DNA from: an uncultured Prevotellaceae bacterium
Lineage (GTDB): Bacteria; Bacteroidota; Bacteroidia; Bacteroidales; Muribaculaceae
Direction: 5' to 3'
Assembly (NCBI GenBank): GCA_900314215.1
Contig: OMUK01000002.1
Span: 25,196-89,195 of the forward strand
DNA length: 64,000 nucleotides
Position 1 is the first letter of the stretch. Each line of letters starts with the position of its first letter. Below the pieces are notes generated by a model. That model was not told where the DNA came from, did not search any database, and saw only the letters and a program-made list of their open reading frames with translations. Position numbers and translations under genes: made by a program. This document shows, piece after piece, positions 3,179 through 36,903 of the stretch.

Positions 3179-3214
3179 GATGTATATCTTTGTGTTGATT
3201 GTTTTGTTGCATGT

Positions 3215-5254: not shown

Positions 5255-5274
5255 CTTACATCGAAGGTTTTGTG

Positions 5275-5306
5275 CAAAGATATTTTTTTTTGCACACTTA
5301 TACAAG
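5275..5306 (-). promoter_or_regulatory. Promoter of the DUF6377 regulator
   Basis: Minus strand CTTG (5303-5306), 20 bp, TATCTTTG (5275-5282). The implied start near 5268 leaves a 14-nt leader and supports translation from 5254. Confidence 0.65.
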
Positions 5307-5471
5307 TAAAACAACAAATATATTTTTGTGAGGTTTTGTAGTAGAAAACATTTACACCAAATGGCCACATCTATTACTTCACAATCTACTTAGATATATA
5401 TGTAATGCGCTATTAATTAGAATTTTATAATTCAGACAAATTTACTTTAGGCTTCATGCTCAAAATCATGT

Positions 5472-5503
5472 GTTGCGGCCGTGCAATCGATTGCGTAATT
5501 TTG
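5472..5503 (+). promoter_or_regulatory. Promoter of the first GH3 gene
   Basis: GTTG (5472-5475), 20 bp, TAATTTTG (5496-5503). Start predicted near 5510, giving a ~93-nt leader that contains a small GCCTG/CAGGC hairpin around 5526-5543. The remaining bases of the 348-bp divergent gap (5255-5602) show nothing else recognisable. Confidence 0.65.
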
Positions 5504-5602
5504 CCATGCAAAACGGGAAAAAGCCCTGCCTGCCGAAAACAGGCCCGCGACGATATTAATGGAAGCGAATTCATAACATTAACGATAACCAATAATAAAG
5601 CA

Positions 5603-7957: not shown

Positions 7958-8007
7958 TCCTATCTTGGATTAAACAAGCACAAACATTACCAATATAATA
8001 TATACAT

Positions 8008-8045
8008 TCTTTCTCCTCCCCCACGCTTAAGGGGGCGGAGAAAGA
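8008..8045 (+). other. Strong intercistronic hairpin between GH3 and receptor gene
   Basis: Arms 8008-8022 and 8031-8045 pair in 14 of 15 positions around an 8-base loop. There is no T-run after it, so it is more likely an RNA-processing or stability element than a terminator. Confidence 0.6.
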
Positions 8046-8094
8046 TAAAACAAAAGAGAAAAAATCTATTCACAAATACAAATAAACATTTTAG

Positions 8095-10362: not shown

Positions 10363-10380
10363 TCAGTCTCTTTAACAATA

Positions 10381-10464
10381 AAAAGGGCCCCACTTGTAAT
10401 GGGCGTGGCCATCACGCCTTGCCAGTCACGGCTGGCAGACGAATTGCAAATGGAGCCCTTTTTT
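10381..10464 (+). terminator. Branched, three-way-junction terminator
   Basis: An outer stem pairs 10381-10400 with 10443-10462 (18 of 20 positions, including AAAAGGGC/GCCCTTTT) and encloses two perfect hairpins: GGCGTG/CACGCC (10402-10418) and GCCAG/CTGGC (10421-10436). The outer stem ends in six T residues (10459-10464), so it can act as an intrinsic terminator after the receptor gene. Such branching is more elaborate than normal. Confidence 0.7.
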
Positions 10465-10528
10465 CTATCAAGAAGAATTAAGCATAACACTACATCAAAC
10501 CAAAAAGATTAATTTTCTATCTATATAT

Positions 10529-12133: not shown

Positions 12134-12160
12134 TCTCACACAATCGACATAAACAACGAG

Positions 12161-12221
12161 GCTGTGCCAAAAGGATGAGGGGAAAAATTCAGCCCGTCAA
12201 TACCCTTGACACAGCTTTTTT
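12161..12221 (+). terminator. Terminator after carboxylesterase 1
   Basis: GCTGTG (12161-12166) pairs with CACAGC (12210-12215), extended by CAA/TTG past a mismatch, and six T residues follow. It may be partial, since copy 2 begins 34 bp later. Confidence 0.65.
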
Positions 12222-12254
12222 CAATTTCAAAAACTTAAATTCCAATCAAAAACG

Positions 12255-13859: not shown

Positions 13860-13890
13860 ATAAAAACGACCTTATCACACGACACGATAT

Positions 13891-15483
13891 ATGAAAAAAA
13901 TCATTTTTCTGCTGGCTGCATTGCTCACCACGGCATGCGCCATCGCACAGCAAAATCCGCGCGTGACCACCAAGAACGGCGTGCTCGAGGGCACCTATCA
14001 ATCGGGACTCAACGTGTTTCTGGGCGTGCCCTTTGCACAGCCGCCTGTGGGCGACCTGCGCTGGGTGGAGCCTCAACCTGTGAAAAACTGGGAGGGCGTG
14101 CGCCAGGCCAAGGAGTTTGGCCCCAACCCCATGCAGACCAACGTGTTTGGCGACATGGCTTTCAACACCAAGAAGATGAGCGAGGACTGCCTCTATCTCA
14201 ACATTTGGTCGCCTGCCAAGAGCGCCGCCGACAAGCTGCCCGTGTTTATCTACTTCAACGGCGGCGGCCTGATTGCCGGCAGCGGCAGCGAGCCCCGCTA
14301 TGCGGGCGACATCATGGCCCACGAGGGCATCGTGTGCATCACGGCCAACTACCGCGAGGGCATCTTTGGCTTCTACTCCAATCCCGAGCTCTCCAGTGAG
14401 ACCAGCTACAAGGGCTCGGGCAACTACGGCCACATGGACCAGGCCGCAGCCATCAAGTGGGTGAAAGACAACATCGCAGCCTTCGGCGGCGACCCCGACC
14501 ACATCACCATCATGGGCGAGAGCGCCGGCTCGGGCTCGGTGAGCGCCCTCATGGCATCGCCCATGAGCAAGGGCCTCATTGCCCAGGCCATGGGCTCGAG
14601 CGGCTCGGTGCTCGTTGCCAAAAACATCATGAAGCTCAGCGACGCCGAGAAAGCCGGCGTTGAGACCATGAAGAAGATGGGCTGCAAGAGCATCAAAGAG
14701 ATGCGCGCCCTCTCGGCCGAGGAGCTTCTGAAGCGCTCGCAAGGCGGCATACACTGGGGCAACGTGGTCGACGGCCGCTTCTTCACCGAGAGCCCAGTGG
14801 AAGTGTACCGCAAGGGCCAGCAGGCACAAGTGCCGCTGCTGGTGGGCGGCAACAATCTCGAGTTTCCCGTGATGTGGCGCATGCAGGGCAAGCCTGCCAC
14901 CCGCGCCGCCCTCAAGGAGATGGCCAAGGCCTACTACGGCGACCGCACCGATGAGGTGATGGCTGCTTTTGGCATCAACAACGATGCCGATGCCAACTCA
15001 ACCCCTGGCAACAACCTGAGCGCCGCCATGTTTATCGACTACAGCACCTGGAAGTGGAGCGAGATGCAGCGCGCCACAAGCTCCAAGCCCGTGTATCGCT
15101 ACCGCTTCACCCACCCGCGCCCCGACATGCGCGAGAACAAGGAAGCCATGCTGGCTGGCGGCACCCGCGAGTCGGCCACCAAGGCTCCTCTGCTGCCCGG
15201 CGCCGTGCACTCGGCCGACATCGAGTATGAGATGGGCACCCTGCCCACCAACCGTGTGTACGACTGGACTCCCTGCTGCTACAACACCTCAAAGGTATTT
15301 CTGAAATACTACGCCAACTTTATCAAGACTGGCAACCCCAATGGCCTGGGCCTGCCCGAGTGGAAGCCCTGCAACGGCCAAGCCGTGCCAGGCGTGCTCA
15401 TGCTCGACGAGAACTCCTACATGAGCAGCGAGGCCAATATCGACAACGCCTACCGCGTGATCGACCAAATCCTAGGTAAATAA
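13891..15483 (+). CDS. Secreted type-B carboxylesterase, copy 3
   Basis: A 530-aa paralogue with signal peptide KKIIFLLAALLTTACAIAQ, elbow GESAGS (Ser211), His in GAVHSADIEY and NGGG oxyanion motif. Sequence is closer to copy 1 at the carboxy end (YDWTPCC, two adjacent Cys). Long blocks are shared with the other copies at DNA level (for example the segment around the EDCLYLNIWSP codons), which points to fairly recent duplication or gene conversion. Followed by a 149-bp gap that holds a decayed gene fragment rather than a terminator. Confidence 0.9.
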   Translation: MKKIIFLLAALLTTACAIAQQNPRVTTKNGVLEGTYQSGLNVFLGVPFAQPPVGDLRWVEPQPVKNWEGVRQAKEFGPNPMQTNVFGDMAFNTKKMSEDCLYLNIWSPAKSAADKLPVFIYFNGGGLIAGSGSEPRYAGDIMAHEGIVCITANYREGIFGFYSNPELSSETSYKGSGNYGHMDQAAAIKWVKDNIAAFGGDPDHITIMGESAGSGSVSALMASPMSKGLIAQAMGSSGSVLVAKNIMKLSDAEKAGVETMKKMGCKSIKEMRALSAEELLKRSQGGIHWGNVVDGRFFTESPVEVYRKGQQAQVPLLVGGNNLEFPVMWRMQGKPATRAALKEMAKAYYGDRTDEVMAAFGINNDADANSTPGNNLSAAMFIDYSTWKWSEMQRATSSKPVYRYRFTHPRPDMRENKEAMLAGGTRESATKAPLLPGAVHSADIEYEMGTLPTNRVYDWTPCCYNTSKVFLKYYANFIKTGNPNGLGLPEWKPCNGQAVPGVLMLDENSYMSSEANIDNAYRVIDQILGK

Positions 15484-15500
15484 ACAAAAACGCAAACAAG

Positions 15501-15611
15501 ATACCCCAGGATGCCAAGCCCGGCCAAACCATACACATGGTGCTTGAGGCTACCGACAATGCCGAGATATCCCTCACGCGCTACCTGCGCACAATGATTA
15601 CAGTAAAATTA
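15501..15611 (+). pseudogene. Remnant of a DUF1593-type protein carboxy terminus
   Basis: Read in frame from 15501, the bases translate to IPQDAKPGQTIHMVLEATDN followed by AEISLTRYLRTMITVK. This resembles the final beta-sandwich segment of Bacteroidota DUF1593 (sugar-binding, nucleoside-hydrolase-like) proteins. No start or upstream body of such a gene is present; carboxylesterase 3 ends at 15483. The frame runs on without a stop into the next gene's start at 15633. It is best read as a deletion scar. The match is from memory of the family, not a search. Confidence 0.5.
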
Positions 15612-15632
15612 ACGATTAAAAAAATAAACTTT

Positions 15633-16685
15633 ATGAAACGCTTAAGACTGACCCTCGTGGTCATCATGCTGTGCCTGCTGGGCGGGCTCCCCGCCATGGC
15701 ACAGAAGAGCAAGAAGCAGGCTAGAGAGCCGCAGCCAGCGGCCGTGACCCAAGCCAAGAAAGTGAAAGTCGTGATCGACAACGACTTCTGCGGCGACCCC
15801 GACGGTCTCTTCCAACTGGTGCACCAGCTGTTGTGCAAAACCTGCGACGTGCGCGCCATCGTGGGCGGCCACCTGGCCCCCAACGCCGGCTTCACCAGCC
15901 GCAGCGACCAAGCCACCGAGTCGTGCGAGAAAGCCAACAAGGTGCTTGAGCTCATGGGCATGCAAGGACAAGTGAAAGTGGTGCCCGGTGCCGAGACCGG
16001 TCTGAAGTCGACCACCGAGCCCATACGCTCGGCCGGCGCCCAGGCCATCGTCGACGAGGCCCGCCAGTGCACGCCCGAGAAGCCCCTCTATGTGCTGTGC
16101 GGCGCAGCCCTCACCAATGTGGCTTGCGCCCACCTCATCGACCCCAGCATCGACGACAAAGTGGTCGTGGTGTGGATTGGCGGCCAGGAATACCAGGGCG
16201 TGGGCAGCTATCCCCCACCAGGCTACTCCAAGGTGGAGTACAACCTCAACCTGAGCATCGCTGCCGGCCAAGTGGTGTTTAACCAGAGCAAAATGCGCAT
16301 TTGGCAAGTTCCCCGCGACGTGTATCGCCAGTGCCTCTACGGCCTCGACGAGGTGCGCACCAAGATTGCCCCCTATGGCAAGGTGGGCGCCTTCCTGCTC
16401 GAGTCGCTCATGAACACAGTGAACTCCTGCGAGAAATACGGCATCCCCATGGGCGAGTGCTACATCCTGGGCGACTCGCCCCTGGTGTTGCTCACCGCCT
16501 TGCAGAGCGGCTTTGAGGCCGACCCCTCGTCGTCGCAATACCAATACGTGAGTTGCCCAACCATCAACGACGACGGCTCCTACGGCTTGAACCACAACGG
16601 CCGCCTGATACGCGTCTACACCCACATCGACAGCCGCCTCATGTTTGGCGACCTCGAGGCCAAGATGCAACTGCTGGGCAAGTAA
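15633..16685 (+). CDS. Secreted nucleoside-hydrolase-like protein
   Basis: A 350-aa protein whose start is the ATG of MKRLRLTLVVIMLCLLGGLP, a signal peptide ending AMAQ. VKVVIDNDFCGDPDG matches the DTDxGxDDA calcium/ribose site of inosine-uridine nucleoside hydrolases, with an altered order of acids. YVLCGAALTNVA matches the following family block, where the NLA of classical enzymes appears as NVA. Export and the glycosidase neighbours make nucleoside salvage less likely than cleavage of a glycoside or C-glycosyl/ribosyl bond; this is inference. A fragment of a related DUF1593 protein lies just upstream. It is 44 bp before the second GH3 gene. Confidence 0.8.
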   Translation: MKRLRLTLVVIMLCLLGGLPAMAQKSKKQAREPQPAAVTQAKKVKVVIDNDFCGDPDGLFQLVHQLLCKTCDVRAIVGGHLAPNAGFTSRSDQATESCEKANKVLELMGMQGQVKVVPGAETGLKSTTEPIRSAGAQAIVDEARQCTPEKPLYVLCGAALTNVACAHLIDPSIDDKVVVVWIGGQEYQGVGSYPPPGYSKVEYNLNLSIAAGQVVFNQSKMRIWQVPRDVYRQCLYGLDEVRTKIAPYGKVGAFLLESLMNTVNSCEKYGIPMGECYILGDSPLVLLTALQSGFEADPSSSQYQYVSCPTINDDGSYGLNHNGRLIRVYTHIDSRLMFGDLEAKMQLLGK

Positions 16686-16729
16686 AATCCATATCAAATC
16701 ACCAAAACATTTAAACCAAACCAACAACA

Positions 16730-19048
16730 ATGAAGAAAATCATGTTATTCATGTTGCCTCTGGCAACAGTGGCCCTGGCTGCTACCTGCTTAGCCAAAAA
16801 CGGCGTGGCACAGAACAAGAGCCAGTATGCTATCATAACGCAATCGGCCGGCCCCACACTGGGCTACAACCCCAACTCGGGTGTGAAAATTCTGACGGTC
16901 GACGGCAAGAAATTCAAGGACTTGAACCGCAACGGCAAACTTGACAAATATGAAGACTGGCGACTGAGCTACGACGAGCGCGCCCGCGACCTCGTGGCCC
17001 AGCTGAGCGACGAGGAGATTGCCGGCCTGATGCTCTACTCGGCTCACCAGCAGATTCCTGCCCCCTCGCAGGGCTACGGCGCATCGACCTACAACGGCAA
17101 GCCATTTGCCGAGAGCGGCGTGCCCGCCTACACGCTGAGCGATGTGCAGAAGAAATTTCTCAAAGACGACCACCTGCGCGCCGTGCTGGTGACCAAGGTG
17201 AAAGACGCTGAGACCGCTGCCCGCTGGAGCAACGAGCTGCAGGCCTATGTGGAAGGCCTCGACCACGGCATCCCCGCCAACAACAGCACCGACCCACGCC
17301 ACGAGACCTCGGCCAACGCCGAGTACAACTACGGCGCCGGCGGCGACATCTCGAAATGGCCCACCGCTCTGGGCCTGGCTGCAACCTTCGACCCCGACCT
17401 GGTGAGGAACTTCGGCCACATCGGCGCCCAGGAGTATCGCGCGCTGGGTCTCACCACCGCCCTTTCTCCTCAAGTCGACGTTGCCACCGAGCCCCGCTGG
17501 ACTCGCTTCACCGGCACCTTTGGCGAGGATCCCAAGCTGGTGACCGACATGGGCCGCGCCTATATCGAGGGCTTCCAGACCTCGACCGGCAAAAAGATGG
17601 TAAAGGACGGCTGGGGCTATGAGAGCGTCGTGGCCATGGCCAAGCACTGGCCCGGCGGCGGCCCTGTGGAGGCAGGCCGCGACAGCCACTACAACTACGG
17701 CAAATATGCCGTGTATCCCGGCAACAACTTCAACACCCATCTCATGCCCTTTGTCGACGGTGCCTTCAAGCTCAATGGCGGCACCAAGAGCGCTGGCTCG
17801 GTGATGACATTCTACAACGTGTCGTGGGGCCAAGACCCATCGGGCAAGAACGTGGGCGAGAGCTTCAGCAAGTATATCGTGACCGACCTGCTGCGCAACA
17901 AGTATAAATTTGACGGCATCGCTTGCACCGACTGGATGGTGACTGGCGACAATGCCAAGATTGAGAGTTTCGACGGCAAGTGCTGGGGTGTGGAAAACCT
18001 CACCGTCGACCAGCGCCACTACGAGATTCTCAAGGCTGGAGTCGACCAGTTTGGCGGCAACAACGACAAGGGTCCCGTGCTGGCAGCCTTCAAGATGGGC
18101 CGACAGGAGTTTGGCGAGGCTGCATGGAACAAGCGCATACGCGAGTCGGCTCGCCGCCTGCTGCTCCCCATGTTCCGCACCGGTCTCTTCGAGAATCCCT
18201 ATCTCGACCCAGCCGAGTCGCGCGCTACCGTGGGCAAGAAGGAGTTTGCCCAGGCTGGCTACGACGCTCAGGTGAAGTCGCTCGTGATGGTGAAGAACCA
18301 CGCCAACGTGCTGCCCGTCGCTGGCAAGAAGAAGGTGTACATTCCCAAGCGCCACTTCCCCAGCGTGGTCGACTTCTTTGGCAACGCTACCAAGGACTAT
18401 TGGGACAACCCCATCGACCTGAAGATGGTGGCCAAGTACTACGACGTGGTCGATAAGCCCGAGGAGGCCGACTTTGCCATCGTAGCCATCCAGGCTCCCA
18501 TGACGGGCACCGGCTACTCGGTTGCCGACCGCGACCAGCAGGGCGGCAACGGCTACGTGCCCATCTCGCTGCAGTACAACGACTACACCGCTACCACTGC
18601 CCGCGACGTGAGCATCGCCGGCGGCGACCCCAAGGAGAGCTTCACCAATCGCACCTACAAGGGCAAGACCGTGAAGACCGCCAACTACGACGACCTCAAG
18701 CTCGTGATCGACACCAAGCAAGCTATGGCCAAGAAGCCCGTGGTGGTGTTTATGACGGCTCCACGCCCATTTGTGCCCGCTGAGTTTGAGCCCTATGCCG
18801 ACGCTATCCTCATCAGCTTCGGCACCAGCTATCAGCCATTCTTCGACCTGGTGTCGGGCAAGAGCGAGCCATCGGGCCTGCTGCCCTGCCAGCTGCCTGC
18901 CGACATGAAGACCGTTGAGGCTCAAAAGGAGGACGTGCCTCGCGACATGACGCCTTATACCGATGCCGACGGCAACAAGTATGACTTCGCCTTCGGCCTG
19001 AACTGGAAGGGCGTGATCAACGACGCCCGCGTGAAGAAGTACAAGTAA
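16730..19048 (+). CDS. Secreted glycoside hydrolase family 3 enzyme, second type
   Basis: A 772-aa GH3 protein. After the signal peptide is an EF-hand-like loop (DLNRNGKLDKYEDW), common in one Bacteroidota GH3 subgroup, then WPTALGLAATFDP, TGTFGEDP, KHWPGGGP and the nucleophile motif GIACTDW (Asp401). It lacks the fibronectin-III tail of the first GH3 enzyme, so the two are not recent duplicates. Likely acts on beta-linked glucose or related sugars in the periplasm. It directly precedes the rhamnosidase (21 bp), so the two would be co-expressed and could strip disaccharides such as rhamnosyl-glucose; that pairing is inferred. Confidence 0.93.
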   Translation: MKKIMLFMLPLATVALAATCLAKNGVAQNKSQYAIITQSAGPTLGYNPNSGVKILTVDGKKFKDLNRNGKLDKYEDWRLSYDERARDLVAQLSDEEIAGLMLYSAHQQIPAPSQGYGASTYNGKPFAESGVPAYTLSDVQKKFLKDDHLRAVLVTKVKDAETAARWSNELQAYVEGLDHGIPANNSTDPRHETSANAEYNYGAGGDISKWPTALGLAATFDPDLVRNFGHIGAQEYRALGLTTALSPQVDVATEPRWTRFTGTFGEDPKLVTDMGRAYIEGFQTSTGKKMVKDGWGYESVVAMAKHWPGGGPVEAGRDSHYNYGKYAVYPGNNFNTHLMPFVDGAFKLNGGTKSAGSVMTFYNVSWGQDPSGKNVGESFSKYIVTDLLRNKYKFDGIACTDWMVTGDNAKIESFDGKCWGVENLTVDQRHYEILKAGVDQFGGNNDKGPVLAAFKMGRQEFGEAAWNKRIRESARRLLLPMFRTGLFENPYLDPAESRATVGKKEFAQAGYDAQVKSLVMVKNHANVLPVAGKKKVYIPKRHFPSVVDFFGNATKDYWDNPIDLKMVAKYYDVVDKPEEADFAIVAIQAPMTGTGYSVADRDQQGGNGYVPISLQYNDYTATTARDVSIAGGDPKESFTNRTYKGKTVKTANYDDLKLVIDTKQAMAKKPVVVFMTAPRPFVPAEFEPYADAILISFGTSYQPFFDLVSGKSEPSGLLPCQLPADMKTVEAQKEDVPRDMTPYTDADGNKYDFAFGLNWKGVINDARVKKYK

Positions 19049-19069
19049 ACTACATGAATACAACAATTG

Positions 19070-22000
19070 ATGAATAGGTTTTCATTCTGTGTATTGCTGA
19101 CCTTGGTGGGACTGCTTCCTGCCAAGGCTCAACAATCCTTTCAACTGAGCAAGCTCACTGTTGACTATCAACAGCCGCAACCAGGGCAGACCATCGTCTT
19201 CACCGACGAGGCCCAGCCCCGCTTTGCCTGGCAGCTGGCCGACGCCCAGACCACTGGCGTGGTGCAGACTGCCTACCAGATTGTCGTCACCGACGAGGCT
19301 GGCAACACCGTGTGGAACAGTGGCCGCACCACCTCGCGCGACAACTTCAGCATCGCCTACCAGGGGCAGGCGCTGCGTGCCTGCACCCCCTACAAGTGGA
19401 CGGTGACCGTGTGGGACAACCACAAGCGCCAGGCCACGGCCACATCAAGCTTCGAGACCTCGCTGCTCTCGACCACCGACCGCGATGCCGCCTGGGGTGG
19501 CGCCCAATGGATAGGCGGAGCCGCCAACAAGCCCGTGGCCGGCAAGCCAGACGAAGCTGTGAACAACTGCCTCTCCTTTGAGAGCCAGTATCTGCCCGTG
19601 TTCCGCCTTGTGGGCACCATTGCCCTCGACAAGGCCACCAAGTCGACCCGCGCCGCCCTGGTATATGGCGCCAACGACGAGCGCCTCATGAATGCCAACA
19701 TGAACATACTGGGCCGCGCCAACGGCAAGAACGAGAGCTACGTGCTCGTGGAGCTCAACACCACCGGCCTCGACGCTGGCGACAGCGCTGCCGTGTGCAT
19801 CTATCGCGTGGGCTACACCAAGACCGACCGTGCCGACGTGCCACTGGCCACGGTGAAAATCCCCACCGACCTCGTGAGCAAGGCCAACCGCTATGCCGCC
19901 CACAAGATTGAAGTGATTGCCAATTGCGGCACGACCAAGCTCGAAATCGACGGCAAGCCCCTGAAGGGCGAGTTGCACATCAACCCCATGGGCGTGGGCA
20001 GCGACTTCATCGCCTTCCCCATGGTGGCCGACGTGGGCTTCTATGCCGCCCAGGGCCAGAAAGCGCAGTTTGGCGACTTCATCGTGCGCAACTACCGCTT
20101 GCCACGCCATGTGCTCGCCGTTGTGCCCACTCCCGGCACGCTCAGCGGCAATCTCTACCTGGCCACGCCCAAGGCCCAGGGCCTGCCCGCGCTGCGCACC
20201 GAGTTCAGCACCCAGAGCAAGCCCATAGCCCGTGCCCGCATCTATGCCACCGCACGCGGTGCCTACGACCTGGTGCTCAACGGCCAGCCCGTGGCCGGCG
20301 ACGTGTATCTGAGCCCCGGCCTCACGCAGTACAACAAGTACCACCAGTACCAGGTGTTCGACGTGACCTCGCTCATGCGTGGGGGCCAGAATGCCCTGGG
20401 CGCACAGCTCTATGAGGGCTGGTACACCGGCAACCAGACGTTCTCGGCCTTCAACTGGAACTACTTCGGCGACCGCCAGTCGCTCTTGCTCCTGCTCGAC
20501 ATCACCTATGCCGACGGCAGCCACCAGCAGGTGGTGAGCCGGCCCGACACGTGGAAATACACCACCGAGGGCCCCGTGAGGCTGGGCAGCATGTTTGCGG
20601 GCGAGATCTACGACGCCACCCGCGAGATGAGCGGCTGGGCCACGGCCGGCTACGACGACAGCCGCTGGCAGCAGGCCGAGCGCGTAGACCTGGAGGGCAC
20701 CATCAGCCACCAGATTGATCCTGGCATGCTCACCTGGCCTTGTCCCGACGACTACTCGAGCATGACCCTGCGCCAGCAATACGACTATCCCGTGCATCAA
20801 GACACGGTGCTCACCGCCCAGAGCCTCACCCAGGTGCGTCCTGGCGTGTATATCTACGACATGGGCCAGAACATGCCCGGCGTGCCCCGCATCACCTTCC
20901 GCGGCCTCAAGAGCGGCACCAAGGTGAAGATGCGCTTTGCCGAGGTGCTCTACCCCGACCTGCCTGAATACAGCGACAACGTGGGCATGGTGATGATGGA
21001 GAACCAACGCGCCGCCATGGAGCAAGACGAGTATATAGCCCGTGGCGCCGCAGCCGAGACCTTCGCCCCGCGCGGCACCTATCACGGCTTCCGCTACATC
21101 GAGATCACCGGCGTTCCCAGTGAGCTGGCGCTGAGCGACGTGCAAGCCACCGTGCTCACTTCGGCCACACCCATTGCCACCCAGCTCGAGACCAGCAGCA
21201 ACGATGTGAACCAGCTCTTCCACAACACCGTGTGGTCGACCAAGGCCAACGTGTTCTCCATCCCCACCGACTGCCCGCAGCGCAACGAGCGCATGGGCTG
21301 GAGCGGCGACTTGAGCGTGTTCTCGCCCACCATGAGCTATCTCATACAGGGCGCTCCCTTCCTGCGCAAGCACCTGCGCGCCCTGCGCGACACCCAGCTC
21401 GACGACGGCGCCTTTGCCTCCATCGCCCCAATAGGCGGCGGCTTCGGCGGCCCGCTGTGGAGCAGCGTGGGCATCGCCATGCCGTGGCAAAGCTGGATAC
21501 AATATGGCGACCGCCGTGCCCTCGAGGAGCACTACCCCGCCATGAAGCGCTACATCGAGTGCTCGCTCAACAACTACATCGACAAGAAGCAAGGCTTCTA
21601 TGCCGGCACCGGCGGCTGGGGCGACCTGGGCGACTGGCTCGGCTTCGAGGTGGGCAAGAACGACAACTCGCTGCTCTTCGACTCCTACCTGGTGTATGAG
21701 CTCGCAATCATGGAGAAAGCTGCCACCGCCCTGGGCAAGACCGACGAGGCTGCCCGCTGGAAACAAGCCCGCGAGCAACGCGCCCAGTTCATCATGGCCC
21801 ACTATGTAGACCCCGCCACGGGCAAGACCGTGGGCTCGGGCCTGGGCGAGATCAAGATGACGCCTTTCGGCCCCAACGGCCCCAAGCGCAGCGGCGTCGA
21901 CATCGACACGCAGACGAGCTACACCCTGCTGCTCTCCTTTGGCATCGCTGGCGACGACATGAAGCCCAAGATTGCCTCGCAACTCGTCAACACCGTCACC

Positions 22001-22627
22001 CGCCGCAGTTTGGGCGACGATGGCAAGACCTATCCTGCCTATTCGCTCATGACCGGCTTCATAGGCACCGCCTGGATTGCCGACGCGCTCACCAAGGTTG
22101 GCCGCACCGACCTGGCCTATCGCATGCTGCTCAACAAGCAGTTCCCGTCGTGGCTCTATCCCGTGGAGCAAGGCGCCACCACCATTTGGGAACGCCTCAA
22201 CTCCTACACCAAGACGGCCGGCTTCGGCGGCAACAACTCGATGAACTCGTTTAACCACTATGCCTTTGGCTCGGTTACCAATTGGGTCATCCAGCACGCC
22301 GCCGGCATTTGCCGCGACGATGTGACCCCCGCCTTTGAGCACTTCATCATCGCGCCCTCGCCCGACGACAACGGCGGCCTCACCCATGCCCGCGCCACCT
22401 ATCAGAGCATGCAGGGCACCATCGTGAGCGGCTGGGAGCGCCATGGCGACGGCGCCACCATCTACACAGTGGCCATTCCGGCCAATGCCACCGCCACCCT
22501 GCGCATCCCAGTGAGCAAGGGCCAAAAGGTGACTTGCAACGGCAAGAAGCTGAAACTCGGCAAGCAGGAAACCAGCGGACTGAACCGCGAGATAGGTTCA
22601 GGCAACTACACGATCATCGTGAAGTGA
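19070..22627 (+). CDS. Secreted alpha-L-rhamnosidase, GH78
   Basis: A 1185-aa enzyme; ATG at 19070 begins a signal peptide ending LLPAKAQ. The first ~110 residues form the Bac_rhamnosid_N-type fibronectin-like domain (PRFAWQL, YQIVVTD). A lectin-like insert and beta-sandwich domains follow, including RIYATARGAYDLVLNG. The (alpha/alpha)6 catalytic domain has the conserved block DCPQRNERMGWSGD starting at residue 734. It ends with a beta-sandwich (TTIWERLNSY then FNHYAFGSV). GH78 enzymes remove terminal alpha-L-rhamnose from flavonoid glycosides, saponins or pectin side chains. It is the last gene before a strong terminator. Confidence 0.95.
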   Translation: MNRFSFCVLLTLVGLLPAKAQQSFQLSKLTVDYQQPQPGQTIVFTDEAQPRFAWQLADAQTTGVVQTAYQIVVTDEAGNTVWNSGRTTSRDNFSIAYQGQALRACTPYKWTVTVWDNHKRQATATSSFETSLLSTTDRDAAWGGAQWIGGAANKPVAGKPDEAVNNCLSFESQYLPVFRLVGTIALDKATKSTRAALVYGANDERLMNANMNILGRANGKNESYVLVELNTTGLDAGDSAAVCIYRVGYTKTDRADVPLATVKIPTDLVSKANRYAAHKIEVIANCGTTKLEIDGKPLKGELHINPMGVGSDFIAFPMVADVGFYAAQGQKAQFGDFIVRNYRLPRHVLAVVPTPGTLSGNLYLATPKAQGLPALRTEFSTQSKPIARARIYATARGAYDLVLNGQPVAGDVYLSPGLTQYNKYHQYQVFDVTSLMRGGQNALGAQLYEGWYTGNQTFSAFNWNYFGDRQSLLLLLDITYADGSHQQVVSRPDTWKYTTEGPVRLGSMFAGEIYDATREMSGWATAGYDDSRWQQAERVDLEGTISHQIDPGMLTWPCPDDYSSMTLRQQYDYPVHQDTVLTAQSLTQVRPGVYIYDMGQNMPGVPRITFRGLKSGTKVKMRFAEVLYPDLPEYSDNVGMVMMENQRAAMEQDEYIARGAAAETFAPRGTYHGFRYIEITGVPSELALSDVQATVLTSATPIATQLETSSNDVNQLFHNTVWSTKANVFSIPTDCPQRNERMGWSGDLSVFSPTMSYLIQGAPFLRKHLRALRDTQLDDGAFASIAPIGGGFGGPLWSSVGIAMPWQSWIQYGDRRALEEHYPAMKRYIECSLNNYIDKKQGFYAGTGGWGDLGDWLGFEVGKNDNSLLFDSYLVYELAIMEKAATALGKTDEAARWKQAREQRAQFIMAHYVDPATGKTVGSGLGEIKMTPFGPNGPKRSGVDIDTQTSYTLLLSFGIAGDDMKPKIASQLVNTVTRRSLGDDGKTYPAYSLMTGFIGTAWIADALTKVGRTDLAYRMLLNKQFPSWLYPVEQGATTIWERLNSYTKTAGFGGNNSMNSFNHYAFGSVTNWVIQHAAGICRDDVTPAFEHFIIAPSPDDNGGLTHARATYQSMQGTIVSGWERHGDGATIYTVAIPANATATLRIPVSKGQKVTCNGKKLKLGKQETSGLNREIGSGNYTIIVK

Positions 22628-22703
22628 GACTTATAGGGCGTGAGTCCTGCATTTCCTACTAGCGCATATCGCGCAACCCAACATAATGGAAAATGAAGTC
22701 AAG

Positions 22704-22736
22704 GGGGTGTGCCCGAGAGGGACGCACCCCTTTTTT
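22704..22736 (+). terminator. Terminator of the glycoside cluster
   Basis: An 8-bp stem (22704-22711 with 22723-22730, one G-U) plus a CCC/GGG inner stem around a GAGA loop, followed by six T residues. Confidence 0.9.
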
Positions 22737-22851
22737 AGGCGCATCAATCACGCTGCGTGTTTCTTGTTGAACATGACTACCAGTTTCCCCACAAGGCACG
22801 GGCCAATTTCACCCAACCACAGGAGCCGAAAAAGAAGCAATTTTTGCCATT

Positions 22852-22890
22852 AAAAAAAAATGCTTGTAAATCAATGATTTGCAAGCATTT
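22852..22890 (-). terminator. Terminator of tRNA-Leu
   Basis: Minus strand AAATGCTTG..CAAGCATTT, with inner AAATCA/TGATTT, forms a long near-perfect hairpin directly after the tRNA and ends in nine T residues. Confidence 0.9.
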
Positions 22891-22895
22891 AGCAG

Positions 22896-22980
22896 TACCC
22901 GGAGTGGGACTTGAACCCACACAGCCGCAATGGCCAAGGGATTTTAAGTCCCTCGTGTCTACCGATTCCACCATCCGGGC
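22896..22980 (-). tRNA. tRNA-Leu (anticodon UAA)
   Basis: The minus strand from 22980 reads GCCCGGATGGTGGAATCGG, then an anticodon arm AGGGA-CTTAAAA-TCCCT (anticodon TAA). A long variable arm typical of class II Leu tRNAs follows, then the T arm GTGGG-TTCAAGT-CCCAC and the acceptor strand TCCGGGT with discriminator A. CCA is not encoded. The first acceptor pair is G-U. Confidence 0.97.
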
Positions 22981-23552: not shown

Positions 23553-24608
23553 ATGAAAATGAGAAACTGGAGAAAAATCAGCTTATTGCTTGCCGCGCTG
23601 TGCATCAGCCTGGCCGCCACGGCCCAATTGGACAAGGGCATAGAATACTACTTCAACAAAGACTACGCCAATGCCGTGAAGTGCTTCGCCCAAGCCGCCG
23701 AGCAGGGCGATGTCGACGCACAATGCATTTTGGGTCTTTGCTATTTTAGTGGTCTAGGTGTGGCCCAGAATTACAATGAGTCCGTGAAGTGGATCAGCAA
23801 AGCAGCTGAGCAAAATTCCATCGAGTCAAAATACTATTTGGGTTATTTCTATGACAATGGAATAGGGGTAGCAAAAAACTCTCGAGAGGCTGTGAAATGG
23901 TATTACAGAGCTGCTGAGCAAGGAAATGCCAAGGCGCAATATCAGTTGGGCGCTAGTTATGCTAATGGTGACGGCGTTGAGCAAAATGACAAAGAGGCCG
24001 TGATGTGGTACAGTAAGGCTGCCGAACAAGGTCTTGCCGATGCACAAAACAATTTGGGCGGTTGCTATTACACTGGGCAAGGCGTGGCTCAAGACTATGG
24101 CGAGGCTGTATATTGGTTTCGTAAGTCTGCCGAGCAAGGTTTTGCCCTTGCGCAATACAATTTGGGCGCTTGCTACGCAAAGGGGCAAGGATTAGCAAAG
24201 AACACTTGCGAGGCTGCTAAATGGTACCGCAAAGCTGCCGAACAAGGCTATGCCCCGGCACAAAATATTTTGGCAACACTTTATGCAAATGGCGATGGCG
24301 TTGAAGAAGACTATAGCAAAGCTGTAGAGTGGTACCGCAAGGCTGCCGAACAAGGGAATGTCAATGCAGAATTCCATTTGGGCGGTTGCTATTTCAAGGG
24401 CCGAGGAGTCGCACAGAACTCCCATGAAGCCGCGCGTTGGTTCCACAAGGCGGCCGAGCAAGGTGATGAAGATGCGCAGTATTTATTGGGCGTTTTTTAT
24501 GAATATGGCGAGGGCGTTGAAAAGGACCTCTACAGAGCCATGTATTGGTATAAAAAAGCTGCCGATCAAGGTATTGTGGAGGCCGCCGAAGCTCTGAAAA
24601 AATTCTAG
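23553..24608 (+). CDS. Secreted Sel1-repeat protein, copy 1
   Basis: A 351-aa protein. The start shared with its two paralogues is the second ATG (23559, MRNWRKISLLLAALCISLAA); either is possible. After the signal peptide (ending TAQ) come about nine 36-residue Sel1-like repeats with the consensus A.YNLG.CY..GQGV...Y.EA..WY.KAAEQG, ending with an ERAMYWYKKAADQG-like cap. Sel1 repeats form alpha-solenoid scaffolds for protein contacts. Base composition is clearly more AT-rich than neighbouring genes. It has no upstream copy of the inverted repeat; its upstream neighbour is the hipBA remnant. Function unknown. Confidence 0.9.
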   Translation: MKMRNWRKISLLLAALCISLAATAQLDKGIEYYFNKDYANAVKCFAQAAEQGDVDAQCILGLCYFSGLGVAQNYNESVKWISKAAEQNSIESKYYLGYFYDNGIGVAKNSREAVKWYYRAAEQGNAKAQYQLGASYANGDGVEQNDKEAVMWYSKAAEQGLADAQNNLGGCYYTGQGVAQDYGEAVYWFRKSAEQGFALAQYNLGACYAKGQGLAKNTCEAAKWYRKAAEQGYAPAQNILATLYANGDGVEEDYSKAVEWYRKAAEQGNVNAEFHLGGCYFKGRGVAQNSHEAARWFHKAAEQGDEDAQYLLGVFYEYGEGVEKDLYRAMYWYKKAADQGIVEAAEALKKF

Positions 24609-24651
24609 AACATTAAACTTCAACATCGGCGGCGCACGCGGCCAAAAGCCA

Positions 24652-24682
24652 CCTGTAAGGGTCGGTCTCGTGCCGGCCCACA
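24652..24682 (+). repeat. Dispersed palindromic repeat, left end, degenerate copy
   Basis: CCTGTAAGGGTCGGTCTCG followed by TGCCGGCCCACA. It is a variant of the 31-bp family at 26334 and lies between Sel1 copies 1 and 2. The bases after it (ATGGTTTCATTCC) correspond to those after the 26334 copy. Confidence 0.8.
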
Positions 24683-24797
24683 AAACATGGTTTCATTCCT
24701 CTTAATTAACGCAATGCTTTGCGATTGCGGTGCGATTTCTTGCTTGTTTTGAAATTTATGCCTAATTTTACACAAGGCAACAAAAACAACCATAAAA

Positions 24798-26279
24798 ATG
24801 AGAAACTGGATGAAAATCAGCTTATTGCTCGCCGCGCTTTGCATCAGCCTGGCCGCCACAGCCCAAGTGGACAAGGGCATGGAATACTTCAACAAATTCG
24901 ATTATGTTAATGCGATAAAGTGCTTCACCCGAGCCGCTGAACAAGGAGATGCCAAAGCACAACTCAAATTAGGCCTTTGCTATTATTATGGCACAGGCAT
25001 AGCCATAAATCGCCCTGAGGCTGTGAAGTGGTTTTACAAAGCGTCAGAGCAAAATTTAGCTGATGCACAATACTTTTTGGGCTTTTGTTATCAAGAAGGT
25101 GAAGGCGTAGCCCAAAATTACAACGAGGCCTCGAAATGGTACCGCAAGGCTGCTGAACAAGGTGATGTCAACGCACAATTCAGTTTAGGCGCTCTCTATG
25201 AAAATGGGCAAGGGGTAGACTCAAACCCTCAAGAGGCCGTAAAATGGTACCGCAAGGCGGCCGAGCAGGGTGATGCCGAGGCTCAATTAAACTTGGGGGC
25301 TTGTTACGATCAAGGAAAGGGCGTGACTCAAAATCACAATGAAGCTGTGAAATGGTACCGCAAGGCGGCCGAACAAGGCAACATAGATGCACAATTCAAC
25401 TTGGGTGCTTGTTATTATAATGGCCAAGGCGTGGAGCAGAATTATGATAAAGCCGTGAAGTGGTTTCGCGAGGCTGCTGACCAAGGACTCGCCCAAGCAC
25501 AATTCAGTTTGGGTATTTGTTACAATCAAGGACGGGGCGTAACCCAAAATTACAAAGAAGCCGTGAAGTGGTATCAAAAAGCCGCTGAGCAAGGCAACAT
25601 AGGCGCACAATTCAGTTTGGGCTTTTGCTATCACGAGGGCCAAGGTGTGGCGCAGGATTATTATGAAGCAGTGAAGTGGTTTCGCAAGACTGCTGAGCAA
25701 GGCCTTGCCGATGCTCAAATTAACTTAGGTAATTGCTATTTTAATGGGCAAGGCGTGAAGCAGAATTACAATGAAGCTGTAAATTGGTATCGCAAGGCTA
25801 CTGAGCAAGGCTGTGCTACGGCACAGTACGGTTTGAGCATTTGCTATTATCAAGGACTAGGCGTGGCTCAGAATTATAATGAGGCTGTGAAATGGTTTCG
25901 CAAAGGTGCCGAGCAAGGCCTTGCCATTGCTCAATACAATTTGGGGGTTTGCTATCACGAGGGCCAAGGTGTGACCCTAGATTATAATGAGGCTGTAAAG
26001 TGGGTTCACAAAGCAGCTGAGCAAGGCCTTGCCAATGCTCAATTCATTTTGGGTGGCTGCTATTACAAAGGCCAAGGCGTGGCACAAGACACTAAAGAGG
26101 CAATGAAATGGTACAGCAAATCTGCTGAGCAAGGCTTTTCCGAAGCTCAATACATTTTGGGTGGCTGCTATTACGTTGGCTATGGCGTAGAAAAAAACCT
26201 TGAAAGGGCCAAGTATTGGTTTCAGAAAGCTGCCGACCAAGGCAATGAAAAAGCCATTGAAGCACTGAAAGATTTTTAG
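24798..26279 (+). CDS. Secreted Sel1-repeat protein, copy 2
   Basis: The longest of the three (493 aa), with the same signal peptide (MRNWMKISLLLAALCISLAA) and about 13 Sel1 repeats. Several adjacent repeats are almost identical at DNA level (EAVKWYRKAAEQG blocks), so repeat gain and loss by recombination is likely. The upstream 100 bp, including TAATTTTA, matches that of copies 1 and 3 and probably carries the promoter. Flanked on both sides by copies of the 31-bp palindromic repeat in the same orientation (24652, 26334). Function unknown; a periplasmic or surface scaffold is the family expectation. Confidence 0.9.
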   Translation: MRNWMKISLLLAALCISLAATAQVDKGMEYFNKFDYVNAIKCFTRAAEQGDAKAQLKLGLCYYYGTGIAINRPEAVKWFYKASEQNLADAQYFLGFCYQEGEGVAQNYNEASKWYRKAAEQGDVNAQFSLGALYENGQGVDSNPQEAVKWYRKAAEQGDAEAQLNLGACYDQGKGVTQNHNEAVKWYRKAAEQGNIDAQFNLGACYYNGQGVEQNYDKAVKWFREAADQGLAQAQFSLGICYNQGRGVTQNYKEAVKWYQKAAEQGNIGAQFSLGFCYHEGQGVAQDYYEAVKWFRKTAEQGLADAQINLGNCYFNGQGVKQNYNEAVNWYRKATEQGCATAQYGLSICYYQGLGVAQNYNEAVKWFRKGAEQGLAIAQYNLGVCYHEGQGVTLDYNEAVKWVHKAAEQGLANAQFILGGCYYKGQGVAQDTKEAMKWYSKSAEQGFSEAQYILGGCYYVGYGVEKNLERAKYWFQKAADQGNEKAIEALKDF

Positions 26280-26333
26280 GACATAATTAGGAAAAACTAT
26301 TATTCCTCAGCATCGGCATGCTGTTGTAATCCG

Positions 26334-26364
26334 CCTGTAGGGGCCGGTCTTGTGCCGGCCCACA
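26334..26364 (+). repeat. Dispersed palindromic repeat, left end of Sel1 cassette
   Basis: CCTGTAGGGGCCGGTCTTG followed by TGCCGGCCCACA; GGCCGG/CCGGCC forms an imperfect palindrome. It is inverted relative to the copy at 27731, and the bases just inside (CGGTTCCATCCTT) match the inside of the 36670-36798 element. Confidence 0.9.
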
Positions 26365-26481
26365 AATTACGGTTCCATCCTTCTAATTAACACAATGCCT
26401 TTGCGATTGCGCTGAAAAATCTTTTTTTGTCTCGAAATTTATGCCTAACTTTACACAAGTCAACAAAAAACAACCATAGAA

Positions 26482-27639
26482 ATGAGAAACTGGATAAAAA
26501 TCAGCTTGTTGCTCGCCGCGCTGTGCATCAGCCTGGCCGCCACAGCCCAAGTGGACAAGGGCGAGGAGTACTACGCCAACAAAGACTACGCCAATGCCGT
26601 GAAATGCTTCACTCAAGCTGCCGAGCAGGGCGATGCCGAAGCACAATTCAATTTGGGCTATTGCTATTACAATGGACAAGGCGTGGCTCAGAATTACACT
26701 GAAGCTGTGAAGTGGTATCGCAAGGCTGCGGTACAAGGTTATGCCAAGGCACAAATCCTTTTGGGCTTGTGCTATTACGAAGGCCAAGGCGTGACGCAGA
26801 ATTACAACGAGGCCGTGACATGGTTCTGCAAGGCTGCTGAGCAAGGTAATGCCGATGCACAATATTATTTAGGCGAGTGCTACTATAATGGACAGGGCTT
26901 AACCCGAGATTACACTGAGGCTGTAATGTGGTATCGTAAGGCTGCCGTGCAAGGCCTAGCCGAAGCGCAATTCAATTTGGGATTGCTTTATGCTAACGGC
27001 CAAGGTGTGGCTCAAGATTATACCAAAGCAGTGAAGTGGTTCCGCAACCCTGCCGAGCAGGGCCTTGCCGAGGCCCAATGCAACTTGGGTGTGTGCTACG
27101 AAAAAGGCAAGGGTGTGAACCAAGACGCACGCGAGGCTGTACAGTGGTACCGCAAAGCCGCCGAGCAGGGCTATGTCCAGGCGCAATACAATTTGGGCTA
27201 TTGCTATGGTCAAGGACTAGGCGTGGCGAAAGATTACAACGAAGCTGCAAAGTGGATTCGAAAAGCGGCCGAGCAAGGACTTGCTGGGGCACAATACTCC
27301 TTAGGCAATTATTATGCCGTAGGTCAAGGCGTGGGTCAAGATTGCAATGAGGCTGTACAGTGGTACTGCAAAGCCGCTGAGCAGGGCTATGTCCCGGCGC
27401 AATACAATTTGGGTGTTTGCTATTATCAAGGGCTAGGAGTAGAGAAAAATTACAATATAGCAGTGAAGTGGTTCCGTAAAGCAGCTGAGCAAAGTTATGA
27501 CAAGGCGCAGCTAACTTTGGGCATTTGCTATTACTTTGGCTATGGCGTGGAAAAAGACCTCGACAGGGCCAAGTATTGGTTTCAAAAAGCAGCTGACCAA
27601 GGTAATGAAGATGCTATCGAAGCGTTGCAAGAATTTTAG
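26482..27639 (+). CDS. Secreted Sel1-repeat protein, copy 3
   Basis: A 385-aa paralogue with signal peptide MRNWIKISLLLAALCISLAA and about ten Sel1 repeats. The carboxy cap (EKDLDRAKYWFQKAADQG) is shared with copy 2 (EKNLERAKYWFQKAADQG). It is the only one of the three enclosed by inverted copies of the 31-bp repeat (26334 and 27731), and both inner flanks match a 129-bp gene-free element near 36.7 kb. It may therefore be cargo of a mobile cassette, an inference from the repeats. No transposase is present. Confidence 0.9.
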   Translation: MRNWIKISLLLAALCISLAATAQVDKGEEYYANKDYANAVKCFTQAAEQGDAEAQFNLGYCYYNGQGVAQNYTEAVKWYRKAAVQGYAKAQILLGLCYYEGQGVTQNYNEAVTWFCKAAEQGNADAQYYLGECYYNGQGLTRDYTEAVMWYRKAAVQGLAEAQFNLGLLYANGQGVAQDYTKAVKWFRNPAEQGLAEAQCNLGVCYEKGKGVNQDAREAVQWYRKAAEQGYVQAQYNLGYCYGQGLGVAKDYNEAAKWIRKAAEQGLAGAQYSLGNYYAVGQGVGQDCNEAVQWYCKAAEQGYVPAQYNLGVCYYQGLGVEKNYNIAVKWFRKAAEQSYDKAQLTLGICYYFGYGVEKDLDRAKYWFQKAADQGNEDAIEALQEF

Positions 27640-27730
27640 AGCATGAAATAGAAATGTCTGTTATTTTTCAATCTTGAGGGTGCGACACTCCTAAGGCAAA
27701 CATTATCAATAAAATAGGTTGCGACATTGT

Positions 27731-27761
27731 TGTGGGCCGGCACAAGACCGGCCCCTACAGG
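27731..27761 (-). repeat. Dispersed palindromic repeat, right end of Sel1 cassette
   Basis: TGTGGGCCGGCACAAGACC followed by GGCCCCTACAGG, the inverse of the 26334 copy. The preceding bases (CATTATCAATAAAATAGG, a five-base difference, ACATTGT) match the inside of the 36670-36798 element almost exactly. Confidence 0.9.
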
Positions 27762-28025: not shown

Positions 28026-30095
28026 ATGCGCAAGATTTATATGCTTATAGCGCTGGCCGCGCTGCCTGTGATGGCCTGGGCAGCCGCTGGATGGCCGGCA
28101 AACTACGGGGGCGTGATGCTCCAAGGCTTCTATTGGGACTCCTACGACGACACCTACTGGCCCACGCTCGAGGCGCAGGCCGACGAGCTGTCGCCCTACT
28201 TCAGCCTGGTGTGGATACCGCAAAGCGGCAACTGCGGCAGCGGCACGTCGATGGGCTACGACGACCTGTACTGGTTTAGCAACTACAATAGCTCGTTTGG
28301 CACCGAGCAGCAGCTGCGCTCGCTCATCTCCACCTTCAAGAGCAAGGGCATAGGCACCATTGCCGACGTGGTGATCAACCACCGCAAGACGCCCAACGAC
28401 TGGTTCACCTTCCCCACCGAGACCTACAACGGGGTGACCTACAAGATGACTGCGGCCGACATATGCGCCAACGACGACGGCGGCGCCACAGCCACCGAGG
28501 CCGCCAAAGAGGGCGTGACCCTCTCGAGCAACAACGACACCGGCGAGGACTGGGACGGCATGCGCGACCTCGACCACAAGAGCAGCAATGTGCAAACCAT
28601 CGTGAAGGCCTACCTGGGCTTCCTGCTCAACGACCTGGGCTACTCGGGCTTCCGCTACGACATGACCAAGGGCTACTCGAGCTCGTTCACCGGCATGTAT
28701 AATGCCGCCGCGGCACCCACCTACTCGGTGGGCGAGTACTGGGACGGCAACGCCACGACCGTGGCAAGCTGGATCAACGGCACCAAGGTGGACGGCGAGA
28801 TCAAGAGCGCAGCCTTCGACTTCCCCTTCCGCTACACCGTGCGCGATGCTGCCAACAACGGCGACTGGACCAAGCTGGCAGCCACCTCGCTGGCCTCGCA
28901 GTCGACCTACCGCCAGTATGCCGTGACCTTCATCGAGAACCACGACACCGAGTACCGCTCGTCGTCGGCCCAGCAAGACCCCATCAAGAAAGACACGCTG
29001 GCCGCCAACGCCTACCTGCTGGCCATGCCTGGCACCCCCTGCGTGTTTCTCAAGCACTGGCAGGCCTATAAGCAAGACATCAAGGGCATGATCGACGCCC
29101 GCAAGGCCGCCGGCATCACCAACACCAGCACCTACAGCCGCTTCCGCAGCAACACCAACTACTACATTGTGAAGGTGGCAGGCAACAATTGCGGCCTCAT
29201 GGTCGACGTGGGCCCTGGCGCAGGCACAGTGACCTCGGCTCAATACACCGAGATCATAAGCGGCTACCACTACAAGTATTACCTCGAGAAGACTGCCGAG
29301 ACCGCTTGGATCGACAAGGCTAGCGGCAAGTATAGCAGCGCCTTCGACGCACGGCTCACCGCCGTGAGTGCCACCGACGGCGCCAAGGTGGTGTATACCA
29401 CCGACGGCAGCGACCCCACCGCCAGCAGCACCCAGGTGGAAAGCGGCTCGACCGTGACAATCGACAAGGCCTGCACCCTCAAGGCCGGCATGCTCATCAA
29501 CGGCAAGGTGACCGGCATCGTGAGCCGCACCTATACCTTCAAGGCTCCCGACGAGGAGTTCACCCCCTACACCTTCAACGTGTATCTCGAGGACCCAACC
29601 GCCAGCCCCAACAACTGGAGCGCCGTGTACTACTACTCGTGGGACAGCAACAACAACACCCAGCAAGACGGCAACTGGCCCGGCACCCAGGCCACAGCCA
29701 CCAAGACGGTGAAAGGCACCAAGTTCTACTATCGCACCTACACCAAGACGAGCAAGGACTACTATGTGAACTTCGTGTTCAGCCAGGGCGGCACCGACGC
29801 CGGCAACCACCAGACGGTCGACGTGCGCCGCGTGGGCGGCGACGCCTACTTCAAGGTGACCACGCAGACCAACAAATATGAGGTGGAGGACATCACCGAC
29901 CAGTACAAGAGCACCACCCTCACCGGCGATGTGAACGGCGACGGCGTGGTGAATGTGACCGACGCCACCATCATGATCAACATGATACTGGGCACCGTGA
30001 CTCCCGACACCACTGTGGCCGACCTCAACGGCGACGGCGTGATCAATGTGACCGACGTGACCGCGCTGGTCAACATCATCCTCGCTGCCGAATAA
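28026..30095 (+). CDS. Secreted GH13 alpha-amylase with C-terminal dockerin-like domain
   Basis: A 689-aa starch-degrading enzyme with signal peptide ending MAWA. All four GH13 regions are present: DVVINH (Asp114), GFRYDMTKG (nucleophile Asp212), GEYW (acid/base Glu237) and FIENHDTE (Asp307). After the barrel come a chitobiase-type beta-sandwich (VVYTTDGSDPT), a starch-binding-like module (WSAVYYYSWDS, NWPG) and, from about residue 634, two dockerin-type calcium loops (GDVNGDGVVNVTDA and DLNGDGVINVTDV). A dockerin on a Bacteroidota amylase suggests attachment to a cohesin-like partner not seen here. Transcribed with its own promoter and terminator, next to a second dockerin enzyme. Confidence 0.93.
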   Translation: MRKIYMLIALAALPVMAWAAAGWPANYGGVMLQGFYWDSYDDTYWPTLEAQADELSPYFSLVWIPQSGNCGSGTSMGYDDLYWFSNYNSSFGTEQQLRSLISTFKSKGIGTIADVVINHRKTPNDWFTFPTETYNGVTYKMTAADICANDDGGATATEAAKEGVTLSSNNDTGEDWDGMRDLDHKSSNVQTIVKAYLGFLLNDLGYSGFRYDMTKGYSSSFTGMYNAAAAPTYSVGEYWDGNATTVASWINGTKVDGEIKSAAFDFPFRYTVRDAANNGDWTKLAATSLASQSTYRQYAVTFIENHDTEYRSSSAQQDPIKKDTLAANAYLLAMPGTPCVFLKHWQAYKQDIKGMIDARKAAGITNTSTYSRFRSNTNYYIVKVAGNNCGLMVDVGPGAGTVTSAQYTEIISGYHYKYYLEKTAETAWIDKASGKYSSAFDARLTAVSATDGAKVVYTTDGSDPTASSTQVESGSTVTIDKACTLKAGMLINGKVTGIVSRTYTFKAPDEEFTPYTFNVYLEDPTASPNNWSAVYYYSWDSNNNTQQDGNWPGTQATATKTVKGTKFYYRTYTKTSKDYYVNFVFSQGGTDAGNHQTVDVRRVGGDAYFKVTTQTNKYEVEDITDQYKSTTLTGDVNGDGVVNVTDATIMINMILGTVTPDTTVADLNGDGVINVTDVTALVNIILAAE

Positions 30096-36553: not shown

Positions 36554-36669
36554 TTAAACCCACACCGTCGCCATGGCGCGCGCCCCGATGGCATCGCCGC
36601 TGGGGAGGTTAAACCCACACCGCCGCCATGACGCGCGCCCCGATGGCACGCCGCTGGGGTTTAAACCCA
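36554..36669 (+). repeat. Tandem 55-bp repeat, two copies plus start of a third
   Basis: Copies begin TTAAACCCACACCG at 36554 and 36609 and share CGCGCGCCCCGATGGCA and CGCCGCTGGGG. A third unit starts TTAAACCCAC at 36661 and is cut off by the inverted-repeat element at 36670. Non-coding. Confidence 0.75.
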
Positions 36670-36798
36670 CCTGTAGGGGCCTGTCTTGTGCCGGCCCACA
36701 ACAATGTTACCTCCTATTTTATTGATAATGTGGGAATTAATTTTAAAAAAAAGGATGGAACCGCGTCGGTGGGCCGGCACAAGACCGGCCCCTACAGG
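36670..36798. mobile_element. 129-bp MITE-like element with 31-bp terminal inverted repeats
   Basis: Ends at 36670-36700 and 36769-36798 are inverted copies of the dispersed repeat (CCTGTAGGGGCC... / ...GGCCCCTACAGG). The 68-bp centre holds, on the minus strand, CGGTTCCATCCTT next to one end and CATTATCAATAAAATAGG next to the other. These are the same inner flanks that bound the Sel1 cassette (26334-27761). It has no coding capacity. Mobility is inferred; no target-site duplication was found. The rest of the gap 35971-36903 holds the orphan unit and the tandem repeat. Confidence 0.7.
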
Positions 36799-36903
36799 TT
36801 TATCGAGGGGGCTGAGGGCTAAATAAAACATGGCGGGCACATGTGTGAGCGTTGCTACTGCTCCACATGTGCCCGGCACACATTATGGGGTTGTCCTCAG
36901 CCG

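Follow-up and report, generated by a model that had tools for sequence, protein, structure and literature searches.

REPINs and a putative RAYT in an uncultured Prevotellaceae genome, with half-REPINs around tandem Sel1-repeat genes

The inverted repeats that flank a Sel1-repeat gene in the window (the whole 64,000-nt stretch analysed, positions 25,196–89,195 of contig OMUK01000002.1, our contig C78) are, by their sequence, a REPIN family: GTAG-headed REP palindromes arranged as inverted pairs around a conserved spacer. This is a known kind of element in a new host. Our best explanation, to which we assign a probability of about 0.6, has three parts: a REPIN family served in trans by a RAYT (REP-associated tyrosine transposase), a Sel1 gene that multiplied in place, and one REPIN that was split into halves. 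The Sel1 gene seems to be an old resident of its locus that multiplied among broken REPINs, and not cargo.

REPs and half-REPINs in the window

The palindrome lies at 24652 (+), 26334 (+) and 27731 (−), with two more copies within 36669–36799 (Table 1); the first three are placed as an earlier note on this DNA had claimed, two direct and one inverted. At ≤3 mismatches its 25-nt core has five copies in the window, against none in 100 dinucleotide shuffles, and in the window all five lie outside the long open frames that we took as genes. Positions 26334–26365 and 27730–27761 are complementary at 32/32 positions; the copy at 24652 is diverged, with 3 mismatches in the core. Each repeat consists of a GTAG head, a stem of 8 bp closed by a 5-nt loop (predicted fold) and a short tail. 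The REP and the DNA after it recur with a period of 1682 (copies at 24652 and 26334).

Adjoining 26334 is the inner flank CGGTTCCATCCTT, of which a diverged version, CATGGTTTCATTCCT, adjoins 24652; the flank adjoining 27731 is ACATTATCAATAAAATAGG...ACATTGT. The stretch 36669–36799 contains both, a CGGTTCCATCCTT side and a ACATTATCAATAAAATAGG...ACATTGT side, so the flanks are indeed common to the gene-free element, as the earlier note had observed. They are the two sides of the conserved, asymmetric REPIN spacer. The same note had joined the ends and the 129-bp element in one MITE-like family, a view that holds up, since the inner flanks are shared genome-wide.

As DNA, 36669–36799 folds as a long hairpin (−43.7 kcal/mol, z −9.86), and 0/200 shuffles fold as well. 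A 40-nt direct repeat, 95% alike, directly adjoins this intact REPIN (36554–36593 and 36609–36648). Single REPs also fold alone as DNA (z −3.3 and −2.3), which would suit a reading, compatible with the others discussed here, that selection keeps the REPs after Sel1 genes as putative RNA hairpins acting as terminators or transcript stabilisers. For copies 1, 2 and 3 the distance from the gene end to the start of the next REP core is 47, 58 and 95 nt, respectively, and PMC3733652 regards REPs that lie downstream of genes as plausible RNA elements. The REP after copy 3 is in the opposite orientation, however, and we consider this reading very unlikely.

Table 1. Features of the Sel1 locus and of the intact REPIN in the window
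Feature	Positions	Strand	Description
Sel1-repeat gene copy 1, 351 aa	23553–24608	+	open frame; Pfam Sel1 4.3e-91
Left half-REPIN before copy 2	24652–24707	+	diverged REP, core 24655–24679, plus ~28 nt of left spacer side
Sel1-repeat gene copy 2, 493 aa	24798–26279	+	open frame; Pfam Sel1 4.8e-148
Left half-REPIN before copy 3	26334–26389	+	core 26337–26361, 0 mismatches, plus 28 nt of left spacer side ending ATTA
Sel1-repeat gene copy 3, 385 aa	26482–27639	+	open frame; Pfam Sel1 6.1e-111
Right half-REPIN after copy 3	27702–27761	−	core 27734–27758, 0 mismatches, plus 32 nt of right spacer side starting ATTA
Amylase-like gene, synteny anchor	28026–30095	+	open frame; name read from sequence
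Intact REPIN, long-spacer form, no gene inside	36669–36799	.	same family as half-REPINs

The REPIN family across the genome and its relatives

Across the 2.88 Mb of this genome, which is 90% complete and comprises 140 contigs, we counted 116 REP copies at ≤3 mismatches; the pattern read backwards, used as a control, gave 0. For a census of REP surroundings we took 121 matches at ≤5 mismatches in fetched stretches, leaving 115 after six identical pairs were merged; about two of these 115 classed rows are redundant, C14 being present via two overlapping loci. An inverted partner was found for 71/115, across spacers of 54–73 nt, exactly 55 nt in 49/71. Seventeen others keep at least 45 of the 55 spacer positions without a recognisable partner, and seven of these belong to the array next to the transposase gene described below. 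Another 17/115 are halves that end at spacer position 22–37 (13 right and 4 left rows). The rest are five bare REPs and five at contig ends, these last five not classifiable. A variant of the REP loop region occurs mainly on the left side of inverted pairs. The spacer is conserved and asymmetric, and its inner flanks are common to the family genome-wide, so the repeats are not the scattered 31-mers without shared inner flanks that the earlier note had named as the finding that would count against it; a bare REP without such flanks is ruled out by the conserved spacers.

Among the genomes searched, the REP is confined to this one. No REP at ≤3 mismatches was found in 100 other genomes of the genus or in 396 other genomes of the family, leaving its own genome as 1/101 and 1/397, respectively. 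Insertion sites were compared with ~832 kb of a relative, G004. At four places (C23:15964, C23:28686, C44:8276 and C55:46185) both flanks align to G004 and the gap between them is shorter there: ~31, 144, 152 and 153 nt in G004 versus 480, 195, 308 and 749 nt here, in that order. Exact empty sites are not readable in G004, because the borders between genes are too diverged; by eye, no target-site duplication was seen at the outer ends, in a comparison with G004 blurred by the same divergence between genes.

REPINs were defined by Bertels and Rainey in 2011, and tandem clusters and clusters beside RAYTs are described in that work (PMC3116915), which also reports excised REPINs in Pseudomonas fluorescens SBW25. 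The present family resembles the REPINs described there in its inverted REP pairs that may form a hairpin, its high copy number, a RAYT beside a REPIN cluster, tandem clusters, and single REPs as remnants. It differs in host lineage, in REP sequence, in its long, asymmetric and sequence-conserved spacer, and in having one gene-sized gap between two half-REPINs. The survey in PMC3733652 reports GTAG repeats for Proteobacteria, Cyanobacteria, Chloroflexi and the PVC group and CGTC repeats for Bacteroidetes, whereas the repeats here, in a genome whose genes suggest a Bacteroidales gut bacterium, are GTAG; the GTAG head, short hairpin, head-to-head dimers and RAYT flanked by repeats are as in the GTAG-tagged REPs of that survey. 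In 92/115 copies (raw count) GTAG is preceded by CT, either immediately or with one base between them. In E. coli, TnpAREP is described as cutting at CT beside the REP (PMC8266576), and the GTAG-headed REP and the position of CT are shared with that REPtron. Unlike it, the perfect stem here is only 7–8 bp and the enzyme activity is predicted from sequence.

Some REPs lie in tandem arrays with units of 142–328 bp (C14, C33, C39, C40, C58, C60, C81 and C107); none of these REP-bearing arrays has a gene-sized unit. On C39 (locus L053, 4302–4411) a left and a right half-REPIN stand back to back, 60 nt apart and both broken near the spacer centre, an inside-out REPIN that might be what is left from the interior of a tandem array. 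A second REP-like family, GCAGGGTGCGGCCCTTGTGGCCGC, has 29 distinct matches at ≤5 mismatches in 342 kb of the genome's own sequence (backward control 0). It occurs in the window at 31677 (−) and 39183 (−) and also at L008, L033, L066, L067 and other loci, and it is fused to several right half-REPINs, forming mosaic elements.

A putative RAYT on another contig

The earlier note had found no transposase in the window and had concluded that any movement would need one acting in trans. A profile search of the whole genome with PF01797, the Y1 transposase family, bears this out: there is no match in the window, on C78, and a single match in the genome, an open frame of 191 aa on contig C107. The frame scores 81.3 bits against the REP_Tyr_transpos model NF047646, a narrow pass at a cut-off of 80, and 32.7 against the IS200 model NF033573, below the cut-off of 55. 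The closest solved chains are three labelled TRANSPOSASE, with E values of 0.0039–0.0061. Its sequence contains PNHIHF and FICRYIHFNP, which we take to be the HUH motif and the segment with the catalytic tyrosine, respectively; both roles are predicted.

The 3.1-kb locus of this gene (L180) contains 12 GTAG palindromes of the same REP family. On these sequence grounds we identify the C107 gene as a RAYT embedded among REPs of its own family, the matching transposase that the earlier note had proposed looking for, and its pairing with the GTAG REP family is well supported. This RAYT would move or copy REPINs in trans. In the array beside the RAYT (positions 84–2085 of locus L037, contig C107), seven REPs have a whole spacer; in these seven units GTGG and then TAAACACTC replaces the right REP, as though every unit had lost the same one.

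PF01797 is present in 92/101 genus genomes; the protein family alone is therefore no marker of the system, and the REP is. A scan of named genomes yielded six relatives of the RAYT from other phyla at 35–50% identity, the 50% extending over 48 residues only. The motif GTAGGGGC occurs in 6/6 of their loci, clearly above shuffles in L175, L176 and L177 and once each in the others. Nine of the 396 other family genomes have more distant relatives (30–36% identity, E up to 1e-15), with other GTAG palindromes in 5/9 of those loci and none in 4/9 (raw counts). The five are L184, L185, L187, L188 and L189, with palindromes such as GTAGGGACGCTCACTCGGGAGCGTCC, which suggests further REP–RAYT pairs in the same bacterial family.

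Multiplied Sel1 genes and two facing half-REPINs

Three Sel1 genes stand in tandem (23553–27639) before the amylase-like gene. G004 is the closest relative, with the most similar amylase protein (82% identical); at this anchored locus it has a single Sel1 frame directly upstream of the amylase gene, and there are 0 REPs in its genome. Of the Sel1 repeat matches in our genome, 29/31 are in this cluster and the other two are in one frame on contig C93, where no REP was found among the places listed (100 of 116 and 101 of 107 places). The single G004 gene beside the amylase gene and the 29/31 matches in the cluster together indicate that Sel1 is native at this locus and multiplied there. Elsewhere near the locus, ~19.7 kb of the window (3173–22883), beside a tRNA-Leu gene (22895–22980, −), had no blastn match in the orthologous G004 stretch (L102, L103), and both of its flanks do align; this is a possible island or replaced segment.

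These observations weigh against the earlier note's proposal of a gene-carrying form of the element, in which REP ends move Sel1 as cargo with a transposase acting in trans. Such a composite mobile element would account for a Sel1 gene lying between inverted REPs with family-specific inner flanks, and a RAYT is present in the genome. The facing REP pairs that we examined, 34 in all, came from the window plus 51 fetched loci, most of which reach 2 kb to each side of a REP. They comprise 32 ordinary REPINs, a single pair spanning 17.3 kb and the pair around Sel1 copy 3. With one case in 34 and no second locus with a gene between ends, with Sel1 repeats elsewhere only in the C93 frame, and with Sel1 at the same place in a relative that has no REP, we regard a composite element as extremely unlikely. 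Titles and abstract openings of literature on REPINs, RAYTs, REP duplication and Sel1 mention no REPIN with a gene inside.

The junction that copies 2 and 3 share supports a further claim of the earlier note, a duplication of the left end along with a gene: from the REP onward the two copies are 73% identical over 96 nt, and across the start codon 94.6% over 129 nt. The first 141 coding nt, however, do not group copies 2 and 3, whose identity there is 84.5%, versus 85.9% and 89.4% to copy 1. At the 3' coding ends the two do group (81.5% versus 69.2% and 74.6%). In the 3' flanks, shuffles were as good in 0.7% of cases for copies 1 and 2 and in 11.9% for copies 2 and 3, so that copies 2 and 3 show no clear likeness there.

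Do the halves around copy 3 come from one REPIN? When joined, the halves at 26334 and 27731 make up 56 columns, of which 49 match the intact C129 spacer, and each half has ATTA at its inner border. In a control of 52 pairings (4 left × 13 right halves), the copy 3 pair ranked 19th, tied with ranks 17–21; most left and right halves fit one another because, as a rule, halves break near the spacer centre. We dropped the fit as evidence for a single split REPIN, and its ordinary quality lowers the odds of such a split to about even. Only closeness suggests that one REPIN was split during Sel1 multiplication. With 11 right and 3 left loci placed at random (C121 left out, duplicated rows merged), a left and a right half faced each other within 1.4 kb in 0.8% of simulations under uniform placing, and in 5% when placing was confined to 15% of the genome.

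Alternatively, the right half and a left half that was duplicated later along with a gene may be separate decay remnants that face each other by chance, with the same REPIN–RAYT family and the same Sel1 multiplication. Halves are common, as the census shows, and the pair's fit is ordinary. Right halves also arise without a gene, as seen in the 6/13 right-half rows (two of them one duplicated locus) with a second-family REP within 200 nt, compared with 1.4% of 3000 random stretches. Against two independent remnants stand the closeness and facing orientation of the pair, expected by chance at the 0.8–5% given above, and the lack of a nearby second-family REP at the right half at 27731, where the best candidate had 12 mismatches and was rejected. 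We give two remnants somewhat less than even odds, nearly as high as those of a single split. The origin of both halves from one REPIN has about even odds and is slightly favoured over two remnants; the frequency of half-REPINs (17/115) and the other tandem arrays, without a gene-sized unit, count against the split.

In the explanation that we prefer, the order of events would be as follows. REPINs would have spread as single-stranded hairpins, served in trans by the genome's one RAYT. The amylase gene already had a Sel1 gene next to it, which in this lineage was multiplied on the spot until there were three. A REPIN presumably lying beside the Sel1 gene would have broken near its spacer centre during this multiplication; the left half, duplicated with a gene, would now stand before copies 2 and 3, and the right half would remain after copy 3. 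The tandem arrays with REPs at several other loci speak for this explanation. Tandem duplication in its simple form should have left an intact REPIN behind the last copy; none is there, so a further loss or a second join would be needed. Stalled replication at the hairpin and recombination between REPs are candidate links between breakage and duplication.

Join points at REPs in duplications have been dealt with in older work. The REP-assisted duplications of 18–49 kb on a plasmid reported in PMC8763031 likewise tie REPs to duplication of neighbouring DNA, and they differ from the present case, a 1.7-kb single-gene unit with its join in the REPIN spacer. For single REPs, DNA insertion into REPINs has been named as one possible origin (PMC3116915).

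A bolder proposal, and in our judgement quite an unlikely one, is that DNA breaks and joins preferentially at the REPIN spacer centre and that the REPIN–RAYT system would thereby amplify neighbouring genes, in this case Sel1, in tandem; the half-REPINs would be the scar of such an event, possibly still allowing copy-number change between them. With an expanded REPIN–RAYT system in only 1/397 sampled genomes of the family, this genome is a good case for studying the origin of such systems and the speed of their spread. How REPINs decay and recombine is seen in its 17 half-REPINs, several of which are joined to the second REP family. Should REPIN breakage prove to be tied to gene amplification, REPINs would be more than passengers and would themselves generate changes in gene copy number.
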